Source: Lachnospiraceae bacterium
GTDB lineage: Bacteria > Bacillota > Clostridia > Lachnospirales > Lachnospiraceae
NCBI GenBank assembly: GCA_024681795.1
Contig: JAILAD010000020.1
Span: forward strand, 1-64,000
Length of the DNA stretch: 64,000 nt
Direction: 5' to 3'
Shown here piece after piece: positions 2,527-8,319 of this stretch (position 1 is its first letter; each line of letters opens with the position of its first letter). Below the pieces are notes generated by a model. That model was given only the letters and a program-made list of their open reading frames with translations. It was not told where the DNA came from and did no database searches. The translations under genes and the position numbers were made by a program.

Positions 2527-2555
2527 TTGACATTTTTTCAAAAAAAAACTATTAT
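2527..2555 (+). promoter_or_regulatory. promoter of the T-box operon
   Basis: TTGACA (2527-2532) and TATTAT (2550-2555) are 17 bp apart in an A/T-rich stretch. The transcript would start near 2562, directly ahead of stem I of the T-box leader. Confidence 0.7.
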
Positions 2556-2561
2556 TGTTTC

Positions 2562-2840
2562 AATCGTACAAAAATAAATGCAGTGAAGGAATTATGTTTC
2601 ATTTGGATGTTTCAGAGAGTCGGCGGATGGTGTGAGCCGATACGGAAGGATGAATGCAGTCTCACTCCTGAGCAGAGTTCCCGAAATTACAGTAAGGAAT
2701 TCCGGAAGACCCCGTTATCGCAGTCGCAGATATGCTGGTATCTGATTAAGAGGTTGTGAAAACAACAAGTCGGGTGGTACCGCGGTAAATGAATGAATTT
2801 ATCGTCCCGGAGGTCATAAATGACTTCCGGGACTTTTTTT
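2562..2840 (+). promoter_or_regulatory. T-box riboswitch, probably leucine-specific
   Basis: The leader has the standard T-box parts. Stem I starts at the AGAGAGTCGG region (from about 2612) with a GGTGTGAGCC motif. The antiterminator motif GGTGGTACCGCGG lies at 2773-2785. A terminator stem of 13 bp (2804-2816 with 2821-2833) is followed by a run of T at 2834-2840. On the 3' side of stem I, CTC (2661-2663) comes directly before ACTCCTGAGCAG. This is the position of the specifier codon in well-studied leaders, where GGC precedes ATTCTTGAGCA in a glycine T-box. CTC is a leucine codon, so uncharged tRNA-Leu should allow read-through into the LeuA-like gene. T-box class is certain; the specificity is read by alignment from memory. 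Confidence 0.93.
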
Positions 2841-2904
2841 GGCCGGAAGTTTACGAAAGAATTGTTTACAGAAGGACAGTTATTCAGGAAAGAAAGGAAA
2901 CGCT

Positions 2905-4317
2905 ATGGGAAGAATCAAAATTGCGGACATTACGATCAGGGAAGCCTGTGGGAATTCGCGCGTAAGTTTAAGCTTCAAGGAAAAAATGGAAGTGGCAAAG
3001 CAGCTTGACAATCTGTTGGTAGATGTCATTGAAATGCCGAAAGTATCGGGACAGACGGAAAGCCTTCTGGTAAAATCCCTTGCTCCCATTGTAAAAAACA
3101 GTGTAATCAGTGTGGAAGCGGGACTTGACCGCAGCGAAGTGGAAAAAGCATGGGCAGCTCTGTCGGGAACAAAGAAACCCAGAATCTGCATTTCGGTTCC
3201 GACCTCCCCGGTTCAGATGGAGTATCTTTGCGGAATGAAATCCAAAAAAATTCTGGAGATGGTTCCCGGAATCGTATCCTATGCAAAGAGTTTTACGGCA
3301 GACGTTGAATTTAACTGTCAGGATGCAACGAGAAGCGAAGAGGATTTCCTGGTACAGATTATTTCCTCTGCAATCGGTGCCGGAGCAACGGGTGTAAATC
3401 TTGAGGATACTGCCGGAGTGATGCTTCCCGAGGAATTTGATACGCTGATTCAGCATCTGACGGAAAGAATTCCGGAACTGAAAAACATTCCGCTTTCCGT
3501 AACCTGTTCCGACAGCCTGGATATGGCCTGCGCCAATGCCATTACTTCCGTAAGAAGCGGTGCATCCGAAATCAAAACAACCCTTCTCGGAAAATCCGCT
3601 CCCGGTCTTGAAGAAGTTGTAAATCTCTTCAGCGAAAGAGGAGATTCCCTTCATATGGAAATCGGTCAGAAGCGTCCCGAAGTGGAGAAAATATTAAGAA
3701 AATTATCCTGGATGGATCAGAATAAAGGAAGCGGTGTACGGATTTTTGCCGGAGAGGAAGGTGCCGTCAAAGAGGAACTCGATTTGGATGAGACCGCGGA
3801 TATTTCAAAGGTAATCCGTGCCGTAAAGAAACTCGGTTACGAGCTTTCGGATGATGACAATGCAAAGGTTTATAAAGAATTTAAACGTGTTTCCGAGAAG
3901 AAGAAAATCGGAACCAAGGAGATGGAGGCCATTATTGCCACTGCATCCCTGCAGGTGGTACCGACCTATCAGCTTGTGAATTTCGTCATCAACAGCGGAA
4001 ATATAATTACGCCGACTGCACAGGTGACTCTGGAGAAAGACGGAAACAACCTGAAAGGCTTAAGCTCAGGAGACGGTCCGATCGCCGCTGCATTTCTTGC
4101 AGTGGAAATGGTAGTGGGCGTTCATTACGAATTGGACGATTTCCAGATTCAGTCCGTTACCGAAGGCAGCGAGGCAGTAGGAAATGCACTTGTAAAACTT
4201 CGCTATAACGGCAAACTATATTCCGGAAGCGGTATTTCCACCGACATTATCGGTGCAAGTATCAGAGCTTATCTGAATGCAATCAACAAGATTGTGGCAG
4301 ACAGTAAGACGGAATAA
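2905..4317 (+). CDS. LeuA-like protein (2-isopropylmalate synthase homologue) lacking the metal site
   Basis: The 470-residue protein has a TIM-barrel of the HMGL/LeuA type (about 1-300) and a C-terminal LeuA dimerisation/regulatory domain (about 350-466, TYQLVNFVI onward). The ATG at 2905 is chosen because AAAGGAAA precedes it; an in-frame ATG at 2839 lies in the terminator arm of the T-box. In active 2-isopropylmalate synthases the metal is held by the Asp of DTTLRDG, a His-x-His pair and an Asn. Here Asp8 is kept in ADITIREAC, but the His-x-His position reads Thr200-Cys-Ser202 and the later GIGERAGN motif reads LLGKSAPG. It is therefore a degenerate paralogue that may have another reaction or a regulatory role. 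It is under a leucine-type T-box and forms an operon with the downstream ligase fusion. Confidence 0.85.
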   Translation: MGRIKIADITIREACGNSRVSLSFKEKMEVAKQLDNLLVDVIEMPKVSGQTESLLVKSLAPIVKNSVISVEAGLDRSEVEKAWAALSGTKKPRICISVPTSPVQMEYLCGMKSKKILEMVPGIVSYAKSFTADVEFNCQDATRSEEDFLVQIISSAIGAGATGVNLEDTAGVMLPEEFDTLIQHLTERIPELKNIPLSVTCSDSLDMACANAITSVRSGASEIKTTLLGKSAPGLEEVVNLFSERGDSLHMEIGQKRPEVEKILRKLSWMDQNKGSGVRIFAGEEGAVKEELDLDETADISKVIRAVKKLGYELSDDDNAKVYKEFKRVSEKKKIGTKEMEAIIATASLQVVPTYQLVNFVINSGNIITPTAQVTLEKDGNNLKGLSSGDGPIAAAFLAVEMVVGVHYELDDFQIQSVTEGSEAVGNALVKLRYNGKLYSGSGISTDIIGASIRAYLNAINKIVADSKTE

Positions 4318-4403
4318 GAAGAACGGGACCCGAAGGATTCAGCAGACGGATGTCCGGAAGATTCTCCGGATTTTCCGAAGGAGATATTTAAGGAGTAAAA
4401 CAG

Positions 4404-6923
4404 ATGAAATTATCATTTAGCACAAACGGATGGGACGATTTTGACTGGACGGATTTCTATGTAACCGCGAAGGATTTGCAGTTTTCCGGAATCGAAATCC
4501 ATGATATCAAAAGAGAAGTATTCGCCGGCAAAAACAGACCTTTCAATAATGAAAATATTGTGGAAACCGCCCGGAAGATTTTTCAGATGCAGCTTGAAAT
4601 TCCGTGTCTGGATGCAACCTGTGACGTGGCAGATCCCGCAAAAATCGAGGAAAACGTTGCACAGATCCGCGAGTATATCCGGATTGCAAAGATTTTAAAC
4701 TGCCCTGCCATCCGGCTTCGTGCAGGAAAGAGTATTGCGGATACGGATGTAAGCGACGAACCGGTCATTGAGTGTATCAGACAGACTTACCGCGAGGCCG
4801 ACAATAACGGCGTATCGCTTCTTCTGGAAACCATCGGTGTATATTCCGATACGGAGCGTTTAAGAAACGTTCTGAACGTTTTCGCAAGAGACAATGTGGC
4901 TGCCCTTTGGGACATTCATCATACGGTAAGAAACGGAAACGAATCCCCGGAGAAAACCATCCAGAATCTCGGTGCGTATGTAAAGCATGTACATATCAAG
5001 GATTCCGACGAAAACGGATATGCCCTGATGGGAGAGGGAAATCTTCCGATTTCCGATTTAATGCTGGCATTAAGAAGTGTCAACTACGACGGATTTATTT
5101 CTTTTGAATGGATTCCGGGATGGCTTCCCGAATTATCCGACCCGGGAATCGTATTCCCGCATTTTGTAAATTACATGAGCCGCTATGAGAGAGAAAACGT
5201 AACGGCGGAACACGGTCTTTATTCCAACAAAGCCGGCACCGGTAAATTTGTATGGAAAAAGGAAGAGATTATCGACAAGACCTTTCCTCAGGTTCTGGAC
5301 CGCATGGTTGAGGAATTCCCCGACCAGTATGCATTCCGCTACACGACCCTCGATTACACCAGAACCTATAAGGAATTCCGGGATGACGTGGATGAGTTTG
5401 CAAGAACCTTAATCGCACTCGGCGTCAAGCAGGGCGGACACGTGGCAATCTGGGCAACCAATGTGCCGCAGTGGTATATCACCTTTTGGGCGTGCTGCAG
5501 AATCGGTGCCGTTCTGGTTACGGTAAATACGGCATATAAAATCCACGAGGCGGAATACCTTCTCAGGAACTCCGATACCCATACGCTTGTCATGATTGAC
5601 GGTTACCGGGATTCCCACTATAACGAGATTATGGCGGAACTCTGTCCGGAACTTGCAGACAATGTTCCCGGAAAAGCGCTTCACTGCAAACGTCTGCCGT
5701 TCTTACGCCATATCATCAACGTATCTTCCAGACAGCCCGGCTGTCTTACCTGGGAAGACGCTCTTGCACTTGCCGACAGCGTTCCGATTGAAGAAGTATA
5801 CAGAAGATCTTCGCTGGTAGACAAGCATGACGTCTGCAACATGCAGTATACTTCCGGTACCACGGGCTTCCCGAAGGGAGTTATGCTGACGCACTATAAT
5901 GTTGTAAATAACGGAAAATGCATCGGCGACCGTATGGACCTGTCCACGGCGGACCGCATGATGATTCAGGTTCCGATGTTCCACTGCTTCGGTATGGTAC
6001 TTGCCATGACCGCATCCATGACGCACGGCGTAACAATTTCGCCGATTCCGTATTTTTCCACGAAGCCGGCACTTGCCTGCATCAATCAGGAAAAAATTAC
6101 CTGCTTCCACGGCGTGCCGACCATGTTCATTGCGATGCTGGAGCATGAAGATTTTGCGAAGACCGATTTTTCCTATATGAGAACCGGTATTATGGCGGGC
6201 TCTCCCTGCCCGATTGCCATCATGAAGGACGTGGTGGAAAAAATGCACATGACCGAGATTACGATTGTTTACGGACAGACCGAAGCATCTCCGGGATGTA
6301 CGATGTCCAGTACGGAAGATTCGCTGGAAGTTCGTGTCAATACGGTCGGCGGACCGCTTCCCGGCGTGGAATGCAAGGTTGTGGATCCCGAAACCGGAGA
6401 GGAAGTACCGGACGGTGTAAACGGCGAATTTGTGGCCAGGGGCTACAATATCATGAAGGGGTATTATAAAATGCCCGTCGCGACGGCACAGGCGATTGAT
6501 GCCGACGGATGGCTCCATACGGGTGATCTGGCCTGCAGAACCCCGGAAGGAAATTTCAGAATTACCGGAAGATTAAAGGATATGATTATCCGCGGCGGTG
6601 AAAATATTTATCCGAAGGAAATCGAGGAATTCATTTATACTTATGATAAAGTAAAGGATGTTCAGGTAATCGGCGTTCCGGATGAACAGCTCGGCGAGGA
6701 AATCTGCGCCTGCGTGGTTCCGAAGGAAGGCATGGAGATTACGGAGGACGAAATCAGGGATTATGTACGTTCCCACATGGCAAAGCATAAGGTGCCGAAA
6801 TATGTGGATATCGTGGAAGGCTTCCCGATGAATGCAGCCGGAAAGATTCTGAAGTATAAGATGAGAGAGGCTGCCGTGGAGAAGTACGGACTTGCGAAGG
6901 CAGACAGCATCGAAACCGCATAA
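4404..6923 (+). CDS. fusion of xylose-isomerase-like TIM barrel and acyl-CoA synthetase
   Basis: In this 839-residue fusion, residues 1-268 form a sugar phosphate isomerase/AP-endonuclease-2-like TIM barrel (motifs LLLETIG, WDIHHTVRNG, VKHVHIKDS, ISFEWIPG). From about 285 to the end it is an ANL-superfamily AMP-forming acyl-CoA synthetase. The ATP-binding loop YTSGTTGFPKG is near residue 483, YGQTEAS and GWLHTGDLA follow, and the hinge GRLKDMIIRGGENIYPKE and the catalytic lysine region AAGKILKYKM close the protein. All core adenylation motifs are intact. AAGGAG precedes the ATG. It lies 86 bp after the LeuA-like gene and probably shares its T-box control. The acyl substrate is unknown. A link to branched-chain acids is inferred from the leucine control only. 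Confidence 0.88.
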   Translation: MKLSFSTNGWDDFDWTDFYVTAKDLQFSGIEIHDIKREVFAGKNRPFNNENIVETARKIFQMQLEIPCLDATCDVADPAKIEENVAQIREYIRIAKILNCPAIRLRAGKSIADTDVSDEPVIECIRQTYREADNNGVSLLLETIGVYSDTERLRNVLNVFARDNVAALWDIHHTVRNGNESPEKTIQNLGAYVKHVHIKDSDENGYALMGEGNLPISDLMLALRSVNYDGFISFEWIPGWLPELSDPGIVFPHFVNYMSRYERENVTAEHGLYSNKAGTGKFVWKKEEIIDKTFPQVLDRMVEEFPDQYAFRYTTLDYTRTYKEFRDDVDEFARTLIALGVKQGGHVAIWATNVPQWYITFWACCRIGAVLVTVNTAYKIHEAEYLLRNSDTHTLVMIDGYRDSHYNEIMAELCPELADNVPGKALHCKRLPFLRHIINVSSRQPGCLTWEDALALADSVPIEEVYRRSSLVDKHDVCNMQYTSGTTGFPKGVMLTHYNVVNNGKCIGDRMDLSTADRMMIQVPMFHCFGMVLAMTASMTHGVTISPIPYFSTKPALACINQEKITCFHGVPTMFIAMLEHEDFAKTDFSYMRTGIMAGSPCPIAIMKDVVEKMHMTEITIVYGQTEASPGCTMSSTEDSLEVRVNTVGGPLPGVECKVVDPETGEEVPDGVNGEFVARGYNIMKGYYKMPVATAQAIDADGWLHTGDLACRTPEGNFRITGRLKDMIIRGGENIYPKEIEEFIYTYDKVKDVQVIGVPDEQLGEEICACVVPKEGMEITEDEIRDYVRSHMAKHKVPKYVDIVEGFPMNAAGKILKYKMREAAVEKYGLAKADSIETA

Positions 6924-6957: not shown

Positions 6958-8319
6958 ATGCAGATTGTTTTACCGGAAGACGTAAAAAAAATAATAGGGA
7001 TGATACAGAAGGCGGGCTTCGAGGCATACGCGGTAGGCGGATGCGTCAGGGACTGCCTTCTTAACAAGGTCCCGAATGACTGGGACATTACAACCTCGGC
7101 CCTTCCCGAAGAGGTGAAAGGGCTTTTTTCGCATACCTTCGATACCGGAATTAAGCACGGAACGGTAACCGTACTTTTGCATCATGTGGGATATGAGGTA
7201 ACCACCTACCGGATTGACGGGGAATACGAAGACGGACGTCATCCGAAGGAGGTTTCCTTTACAAGATCGTTAAAAGAGGACCTTTTGCGCAGGGATTTTA
7301 CCATCAATGCAATGGCCTACAACGATACGGACGGTCTGATTGATTTATTCGGCGGGCAGCAGGATTTAAAGGACGGCATAATACGTTGTGTCGGGAATGC
7401 GGAGGACCGCTTCGGAGAAGATGCGTTAAGGATGCTTCGGGCAGTCAGATTTTCGGCACAGCTTGATTTTGAAATAGAAGAAGAGACGTTAAAGGCCGTT
7501 AAGAAACTTTCCGGAAATCTGGAGAAGGTTTCCGAGGAGAGAATTCAGACGGAACTGGTAAAAACGATAACGAGCGACCATCCCGGAAAAATAAGGATTG
7601 CCCATGAATGCGGACTGACAAAGGTATTTCTTCCGGAATTCGACGTCTGCATGGAAACCGCACAGAACAATCCGAATCATTTGTATACGGTCGGGGAACA
7701 TTCCGTAAGGAGCATGGAACGGATTCCCGCAAAAAAGGAACTGCGTCTTACGATGCTTTTGCATGATATCGGGAAACCGGCTCTTAAGACCACGGATGAA
7801 GAGGGAATTGACCATTTTCACGGACATCCCGCGAAATCCGCAGAGATGGCAAGGGAGATTTTAAGGAGGCTGAAATTCGACAATCAGACGGTTGATAAGG
7901 TCAGCAGACTCTGTGCATGCCACGATGTCAGAATCGAGCCGGGAAAGAAATACTTAAGGCGCGCCATGAACAGGCTCGGCGGAGATCTGTTTCCGGATTT
8001 CTTTCTGGTACAGCGTGCAGATGTCTGTGCGCAGAGCGACTGGAAGAGAAAGGAAAAACTTGACCAGATTGCCCGGAATGAAGCGGATTATAAGGAAATA
8101 ACCGATGCGGGAGAATGTTTTTCCTTAAAGGACCTGGCAGTGAACGGAAAGGACCTGATTGATGCCGGAATAAAACCCGGAAAAGAGATTGGAGAAATCC
8201 TTGAAAAAATGCTGAATCTCGTTTTGGAGGACCCTGAAAACAACGAAAAATCGCGACTTTTTGAGTTATGTCTACCAAAAACACAAGAAAATGGGGAAAA
8301 ATCGAAAAAAAAGTGCTAA
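6958..8319 (+). CDS. cca: CCA tRNA nucleotidyltransferase
   Basis: This 453-residue enzyme adds or repairs the 3' CCA end of tRNAs. The class II nucleotidyltransferase head shows YAVGGCVRDCLL and the metal-binding NDWDITTSA, then the RRDFTINAMAY and RFGEDALRMLRAVRF motifs. An HD domain with LLHDIGKPAL (around residues 265-275) follows, giving the bacterial HD-containing form. The C terminus is lysine-rich and ends just before the hup promoter. The ribosome binding site before the ATG is modest (AGGAGCAGGA). The gene follows the ligase fusion after 34 bp, so it may be co-transcribed with it, although its function is general tRNA maturation. Confidence 0.95.
   Translation: MQIVLPEDVKKIIGMIQKAGFEAYAVGGCVRDCLLNKVPNDWDITTSALPEEVKGLFSHTFDTGIKHGTVTVLLHHVGYEVTTYRIDGEYEDGRHPKEVSFTRSLKEDLLRRDFTINAMAYNDTDGLIDLFGGQQDLKDGIIRCVGNAEDRFGEDALRMLRAVRFSAQLDFEIEEETLKAVKKLSGNLEKVSEERIQTELVKTITSDHPGKIRIAHECGLTKVFLPEFDVCMETAQNNPNHLYTVGEHSVRSMERIPAKKELRLTMLLHDIGKPALKTTDEEGIDHFHGHPAKSAEMAREILRRLKFDNQTVDKVSRLCACHDVRIEPGKKYLRRAMNRLGGDLFPDFFLVQRADVCAQSDWKRKEKLDQIARNEADYKEITDAGECFSLKDLAVNGKDLIDAGIKPGKEIGEILEKMLNLVLEDPENNEKSRLFELCLPKTQENGEKSKKKC

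Follow-up and report, generated by a model that had tools for sequence, protein, structure and literature searches.

A 64,000-nucleotide stretch of DNA from a Lachnospiraceae bacterium (contig JAILAD010000020.1 of assembly GCA_024681795.1; the whole stretch is hereafter called the window) carries, at positions 2527 to 6923 and on the plus strand throughout, a T-box leader followed by two genes, a derivative of 2-isopropylmalate synthase (LeuA; gene 1) and a fusion of a TIM barrel with an acyl-CoA ligase (gene 2). We put at about three in four the probability that this locus encodes and regulates the step by which an alternative leucine pathway is entered, one in which isovalerate is converted by way of isovaleryl-CoA and 2-oxoisocaproate to leucine. 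In clostridia of the gut and the rumen, where the usual leucine pathway is often missing, isovalerate appears to serve as the source of leucine, and gene 1 is probably a leucine-sensing pseudoenzyme that controls the ligase.

The gene pair is conserved across genomes

Relatives of gene 1 were sought in one genome per species, over 84,980 species and with E values up to 1e-3, and at least 585 stretches were found, among which ordinary LeuA may be present. The best 80 of these at least 585 stretches were kept, so that the sample leans towards close relatives, and six loci from a 150-genome family sample were added; with one duplicate removed, this gave 85 loci beside the window. L022 and L042 are apparently a single locus, one of which was dropped in each count, and L064 and L076 belong to the same assembly; in genome G092 the gene 1 relative stands near a contig end, with its partner out of sight. 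The fusion gene lay directly downstream of gene 1 in 83 of the 85 loci, and the remaining two reach the end of their contig. The two frames overlap or are separated by at most 10 nucleotides in 59 of the 83 loci. Samples named as ruminant or horse gut account for 42 of the 80 kept stretches. Neighbours, here and below, were counted on the same strand within the fetched stretch, and such counts do not stand for proven operons. The system is real, conserved and coherent in the 85 loci beside the window.

The leader is a T-box with a leucine specifier

T-box leaders bind uncharged tRNA, which prevents termination of transcription and raises expression when the charged tRNA is in short supply. The leader of the pair (2574..2812) matched the full Rfam model RF00230 with 116.9 bits (E 3.3e-25; gathering score 93), and the specifier columns of the covariance-model alignment placed the specifier codon, CTC (Leu), at 2661..2663. 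A preliminary description of the locus, made from its sequence, had named the same T-box and the same codon, and the covariance model reproduced both. The T-box sequence proper, GGGTGGTACCGCGG (2772..2785), which forms the antiterminator and pairs with the end of the uncharged tRNA, was recognized from the sequence and the RF00230 match, and it is followed by an intrinsic terminator with a T run (2804..2840; 13 pairs, −24.6 kcal/mol, z −5.9) that competes with the antiterminator. The stem I region folded by itself gave no useful signal (z +1.2). A sigma-70-like promoter, TTGACA-17-TATTAT, with 11 of 12 consensus positions, was assigned at 2527..2555 mainly because of its place in front of the leader, since it is the best of 7 such matches in the region and shuffled sequences average 6.8.

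Read in the same way, two other T-boxes of the same genome gave an ACC (Thr) specifier before a gene that reads as thrS (92.5 bits) and a UGG (Trp) specifier ahead of genes that look like a trp operon (79.6 bits); both scores are below the gathering score, and the genes were named by reading only. A T-box hallmark was present within 320 nucleotides upstream of gene 1 in 68 of the 85 loci, and in 67 of the 82 loci having at least 250 nucleotides of upstream sequence. The specifier was CTC in 66 and CTG in 2 of the 68 readable leaders, window included, all of them Leu; three further rows with the hallmark were unreadable at the specifier. A wrong specifier was ruled out on two grounds, the model alignment and the exchange of CTC for CTG, both Leu codons, in two leaders. 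In L099, two exact hallmark sequences lie 241 and 118 nucleotides before a single gene 1 start, possibly a doubled antiterminator, and in L020 a second hallmark with two mismatches may be due to chance.

Gene 2 looks like an intact acyl-CoA ligase

The product of gene 2 (4404..6923; 839 residues), a proposed isovaleryl-CoA ligase, contains an AP_endonuc_2 (xylose-isomerase-like) domain at residues 22-237 (4467..5114), an AMP-binding domain at residues 299-688 (5298..6467) and an AMP-binding_C domain at residues 739-814 (6618..6845), in agreement with its earlier reading as a sugar-isomerase-like barrel joined to a complete acyl-CoA synthetase. The ligase motifs SGTTG, K491-G492, YGQTE, H705, G707-D708 and R723 were found in 28 of 28 aligned sequences, as was Lys814, which we take to be the catalytic lysine, and T706 was found in 25. 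By these motifs, gene 2 looks like an intact AMP-forming acyl-CoA ligase. Pairwise identity among the 28 sequences was 77% in the ligase part and 44% in the barrel part. In the barrel, the candidates for the Glu-Asp-His-Glu metal ligands of AP_endonuc_2 proteins are E142, D170, H197 and E235, which are kept in 26, 18, 27 and 22 of the 28 sequences, respectively. The predicted structure of gene 2 is of low confidence around residues 479-520, and the structures listed in a fold search with it were all ligases. The identity of the T-box, the neighbouring genes and the pathway gaps described below together point to isovalerate as the likely substrate.

In the closest relative among the 80 kept loci (L030:4872-7404; gene 1 89% identical), gene 2 is in two open frames, through either a sequencing error or a real split. 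Downstream of gene 2 in the window, a gene at 6958-8319, presumably for a tRNA nucleotidyltransferase, starts after 34 nucleotides on the same strand and may be cotranscribed; five relatives also have a gene of this kind after the pair.

Gene 1 has lost the LeuA metal site and kept the regulatory domain

The product of gene 1 (2905..4317; 470 residues) has HMGL-like and LeuA_dimer domains and a predicted LeuA fold. The metal ligands of LeuA are an Asp, the His-x-His pair and the Asn of GIGERAGN. Codons 200-202 (3502..3510) encode Thr-Cys-Ser in place of His-x-His, and residues 227-234 read LLGKSAPG at the GIGERAGN site, both exactly as first described; a His at position 200 or 202 was found in 0 of 86 aligned sequences. 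Compared with two ordinary LeuAs, this loop is four residues shorter and the Asn is without a counterpart, and the shortening was present in all eight aligned rows that were inspected. Asp8, which we take to be the one remaining ligand, is kept in 86 of 86 sequences. Gene 1 scored below the NCBIfam cut-offs for LeuA (TIGR00973, 306.9 vs 598.7 bits; NF002086, 332.4 vs 532 bits).

The LeuA_dimer (leucine allosteric) domain, at residues 337-463 (3913..4293), is in contrast nearly complete (103.7 bits against a cut-off of 24.9, profile positions 4-130 of 131), as the early reading of an intact regulatory domain had it, and it is the best-conserved part of gene 1. Mean pairwise identity within the gene 1 family was 71% in the regulatory domain and 43% in the barrel, and two ordinary LeuAs of the family sample, compared with each other as a thin yardstick, showed the reverse (23% and 44%). 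In five close pairs with synonymous divergence (dS) of about 1-2, the ratio of nonsynonymous to synonymous divergence (dN/dS) was 0.006-0.05 in the regulatory domain and 0.07-0.18 in the barrel. Judged by these comparisons of sequence, gene 1 is therefore maintained by selection, the sensor half above all. A decaying pseudogene was ruled out by the dN/dS values and the family-wide conservation, and an ordinary LeuA that draws its metal ligands from elsewhere was ruled out on conservation. Such conservation would be expected of a regulatory pseudoenzyme, and the ligand would be leucine. In mycobacterial LeuA, a pocket of this domain at the interface of the dimer takes up leucine, and a loop closes over it (PMC11057210). 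A search of the open-licence literature for leucine-binding residues found no paper.

The barrel of gene 1 could instead have been rebuilt into a new active site, for example one that acts on a branched acyl-CoA as a lyase or in a condensation, in which case the pathway would be other than a simple carboxylation. The complete retention of Asp8, the invariance of Asp140, Arg143 and Asp168 among 30 sequences and the purifying selection on the barrel would fit such an enzyme. A new active site should itself be conserved, however, and position 200 is highly variable, Ser202 is kept in only 50 and Arg12 in only 43 of the 86 sequences; in addition, the GERAGN loop is shortened in the eight rows inspected, and residue 224 is Lys in 82 of 86 sequences and Glu in the two ordinary LeuAs. 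We therefore regard a catalytic role as improbable and a pseudoenzyme as the better description of gene 1.

The structure predicted for gene 1 had a mean predicted local distance difference test score (pLDDT) of 84 and a predicted template-modelling score (pTM) of 0.60, and because of the latter the orientation of its domains was left unused. Its barrel superimposed on 3ewb with a template-modelling (TM) score of 0.93 by target length and a root-mean-square deviation (rmsd) of 1.7, and the whole chain on leucine-bound 3fig with a TM score of 0.54 by query length and an rmsd of 17.7. A search of the PDB with the regulatory domain alone gave weak matches only (best E 0.43).

Genes for the other proposed steps lie beside the module in some loci, and LeuB is often absent

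Genes that cluster beside the module encode subunits of a 2-oxoacid:ferredoxin oxidoreductase, a branched-chain transaminase, a P-loop ATPase, an amidohydrolase, and proteins that join helix-turn-helix (HTH), cupin and ligase domains. A representative VorB scored 548.8 bits (NCBIfam cut-off 399) and a representative IlvE 397.1 bits (cut-off 250.05), and representatives of VorA and VorC matched 2-oxoacid oxidoreductase models below cut-off. On the module strand of the 85 loci, VorA and VorB were both present in 20, IlvE in 19, and any Vor or IlvE gene in 29; among loci of at least 14 kb, 24 of 46 had at least one Vor or IlvE gene. The order pair, IlvE, ATPase, VorB, VorA, VorC, HTH/cupin, all on one strand, recurred in seven loci (L062, L063, L066, L073, L074, L085 and L104).

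We then considered whole genomes, using 57 that carry the module, namely those of 50 of the 80 loci (picked by hand, with most short contigs avoided) and seven from the family sample; completeness is not given for genomes reached through loci, and the tests on 40 genomes below used a subset of the 57. VorB was over cut-off in 50 of the 57 module genomes, and LeuB was not over cut-off in 46. In the 150-genome family sample, LeuB was over cut-off in 0 of 7 genomes with the module and in 133 of 143 others (Fisher p 6.6e-8), and VorB was over cut-off in 6 of the 7 and in 8 of the 143 (p 1.4e-6), with related genomes treated as independent in both tests. The seven family genomes were defined by a gene 1 match with E below 1e-90; G020 and G127 (E near 1e-31 to 1e-33) match the barrel only and were treated as carrying ordinary LeuA.

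The small P-loop ATPase (L062:13004-13672 and relatives; CbiA/ParA-like by weak matches) was found in 25 loci, mostly beside Vor genes, and is perhaps an assembly or iron-sulfur factor. In 17 of 85 loci (one is L058:11918-12727), the strand of the module also encodes, downstream of the pair, an Amidohydro_2 protein, of which a single representative was scanned and had no NCBIfam match at E 0.001.

The host genome lacks LeuA and LeuB over cut-off and has candidate genes for the proposed steps

The genome from which the window comes is 93% complete. The preliminary description had allowed for gene 1 as a paralogue next to a true leuA, and this was ruled out for the host genome, in which no gene exceeded a LeuA cut-off. 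The other HMGL-like genes found in it are one of oxaloacetate-decarboxylase type and one without LeuA_dimer, neither of which reaches the LeuA cut-off. No LeuB over cut-off and no match to IlvC were found in it, and its single aconitase-type gene matched a hydratase model best and fell below the LeuC cut-offs. In a relative given as 100% complete (G120), neither LeuB nor IlvC was over cut-off either. The ligase, the 2-oxoacid:ferredoxin oxidoreductase and the branched-chain transaminase are all present in the host genome: IlvE is a partial frame of 348 bits (cut-off 307), and a cluster on contig C46 (L114:2966-8822) has the order ATPase, VorB, VorA, VorC, HTH/cupin, MbcS-like ligase, for which the HTH-cupin protein is a candidate regulator. 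An HMGL-like gene at L002:1294-2715, with intact HGH and GIGERTGN motifs, stands near an isocitrate-dehydrogenase-like fragment and may encode a Re-type citrate synthase.

Isoleucine and valine T-boxes precede a second type of ligase

A second T-box of the host genome (97.1 bits), with the specifier AUC (Ile), precedes a gene for a 766-residue HTH-cupin-acyl-CoA-ligase protein (G000:C56:37395-40019; also L014 and L026). Its best NCBIfam match was MbcS (NF047394), with 446.5 bits against a cut-off of 850, and we hence call it MbcS-like only. Relatives with E up to 1e-100 were present in 37 of 40 module genomes. A T-box hallmark stood directly upstream in 28 of the 30 MbcS-like loci listed, and in the two exceptions the sequence available upstream is only about 131 and 145 nucleotides long; the 28 specifiers were ATC (Ile) in 24 and GTA or GTC (Val) in 4. 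In five loci a second T-box before the next copy reads Val and the first reads Ile (5 of 5). In an unrooted tree with 30 members, the four enzymes of Val type group together as a single clade (support 100/99). The three of 40 genomes without an MbcS-like ligase all have IlvC (3 of 10 IlvC-positive vs 0 of 30 others; p 0.012). In L117:10209-10526, the minus strand carries two tandem Clostridiales-1 small RNAs (RF01699), which lie a little downstream of where a second MbcS-like ligase frame ends.

The MbcS of Staphylococcus aureus activates 2-methylbutyrate and isobutyrate, and isovalerate poorly (PMC10026030). A division of labour would accordingly predict a separate, Leu-controlled ligase for isovalerate. 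In S. aureus, MbcS serves fatty-acid priming (PMC10026030), which lends some weight to another explanation, namely that the branched acyl-CoA made by the ligases primes the synthesis of branched-chain membrane fatty acids and that the T-boxes respond because a lack of amino acids goes with a lack of acyl-CoA; isovaleryl-CoA would be usable for either purpose. This explanation seems unlikely to us, since it leaves unexplained the VorBAC and IlvE genes beside the module, the usual absence of LeuB, and the leucine-type allosteric domain as the best-conserved part of gene 1; moreover, to induce IlvE and VorBAC when leucine is scarce would squander it if the two worked in the oxidative direction.

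The synthesis of leucine from isovalerate was also weighed against a degradative or detoxifying module, which would act on isovalerate or on breakdown products of leucine and to which the T-box would be linked incidentally. Enzymes of the VorBAC type can run in the oxidative direction. T-boxes raise expression at a shortage of charged tRNA, however, as would be fitting for synthesis or uptake, the three T-box specificities found correspond to three branched acids, and AMP-forming ligases spend ATP on the activation of acids, so that we hold degradation to be very improbable.

Discussion

In the mechanism that we propose, a shortage of leucine would lead to the binding of uncharged tRNA-Leu by the T-box and, through antitermination, to production of the pair, a step based on the leader and on established knowledge of T-boxes. 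The gene 2 ligase would activate external isovalerate to isovaleryl-CoA, to which a VorBAC-type 2-oxoacid:ferredoxin oxidoreductase, working in the reductive direction, would add CO2 to give 4-methyl-2-oxopentanoate, and IlvE would transaminate the latter to leucine. This chemistry is proposed on account of the gene content and of rumen physiology as described in PMC7356843. Gene 1, in what is the least certain step, would bind the ligase and slow it when leucine is plentiful. The preliminary description had offered two readings, a different route with activation of a branched acid and a LeuA relative with a regulatory role, and the linkage of the pair, the Leu specifiers, the lack of LeuB and the VorBAC and IlvE genes favour both at once. 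On balance we also lean towards a wider account, in which the leucine-sensing half of LeuA, the committed enzyme of the usual pathway, was kept and re-attached, as a pseudoenzyme, to the committed enzyme of the replacement pathway, so that feedback control would have moved between unrelated pathways and been added on top of T-box control, the ligase for each branched acid having its own matching Leu, Ile or Val T-box.

Several observations weigh against the isovalerate pathway. The preliminary description had asked whether the pair co-occurs and always follows a T-box; the co-occurrence held, and the second part did not, as no T-box was near gene 1 in 15 of the 82 loci with enough upstream sequence, and cmscan at the Rfam gathering level found none in the eight T-box-less loci that were tried. 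Several of the T-box-less loci have Vor and IlvE genes next to the pair. In the host genome, VorBAC is on another contig than the window and no T-box was found at the C46 cluster. VorB was not over cut-off in 7 of 57 module genomes, among them the 97% complete G115, LeuB was over cut-off in 11 of 57, and IlvC is kept in 10 of 40. Two genomes of the family sample, G039 and G134, which are among the eight with VorB and without the module, have VorB, no LeuB over cut-off and no match to the module, and other arrangements therefore exist. Gene 2 misses all NCBIfam models listed (best NF009233), its acyl substrate is not readable from the ligase, and the proposal does not account for its TIM domain. 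The invariant His407-Tyr408 of the gene 1 regulatory domain is missing from the two ordinary LeuAs compared, and the ligand could therefore differ from leucine. As for the isoleucine and valine counterparts, only 3 of the 10 T-boxes in the five tandem loci pass the gathering score (two Val, one Ile); for those three the covariance-model alignment agrees with the specifier reading.

Branched-chain volatile acids have been known as growth factors of rumen bacteria for some sixty years. If the proposal is true, the leucine route, and by the same logic those to isoleucine and valine, gains genes and control elements, together with markers by which it could be traced in metagenomes, and predictions of auxotrophy change, as genomes with the module that are called leucine auxotrophs may grow on isovalerate. 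The three T-box specificities would predict three ligase substrates, and gene 1 would be a test case of a catalytic enzyme turned regulator of its own replacement.

In the open-licence literature, as far as its text was available, no paper was found that links the isovalerate route to T-boxes, to a LeuA pseudoenzyme or to the gene pair, and acyl-CoA and isovalerate are absent from the main text, in the portions available, of two T-box surveys (PMC2494555 and PMC3766115). The former survey describes leuA behind a T-box in Geobacter and Pelobacter, and the likeness to our locus is a T-box before a leuA-type gene; the gene there is named 2-isopropylmalate synthase, whereas here a relative devoid of the metal site precedes a ligase. 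With LeuA itself (TIGR00973 and NF002086), gene 1 shares the barrel fold (3ewb) and the LeuA_dimer domain, and it differs in the missing His-x-His and Asn ligands, the shortened GERAGN loop, scores below the cut-offs and an inverted pattern of conservation. The S. aureus MbcS (NF047394) is a short branched-acid ligase and the best match of the Ile T-box ligase of the host genome, which in contrast carries HTH and cupin domains and scores below the cut-off; gene 2 belongs to a different branch of ligases, with NF009233 as its best match. Closest in chemistry are the rumen bacteria in which isovalerate is carboxylated and aminated to leucine (Allison 1962 and 1966, as cited in PMC7356843), with parallel routes from 2-methylbutyrate to isoleucine and from isobutyrate to valine. 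The proposed chemistry is the same, and the conversion of isovalerate to leucine was thus already known; the earlier work was physiological, whereas what appears to be new here, within the literature searched, is the proposed gene module, its three-way T-box control and the probable sensor, a protein with a leucine domain.

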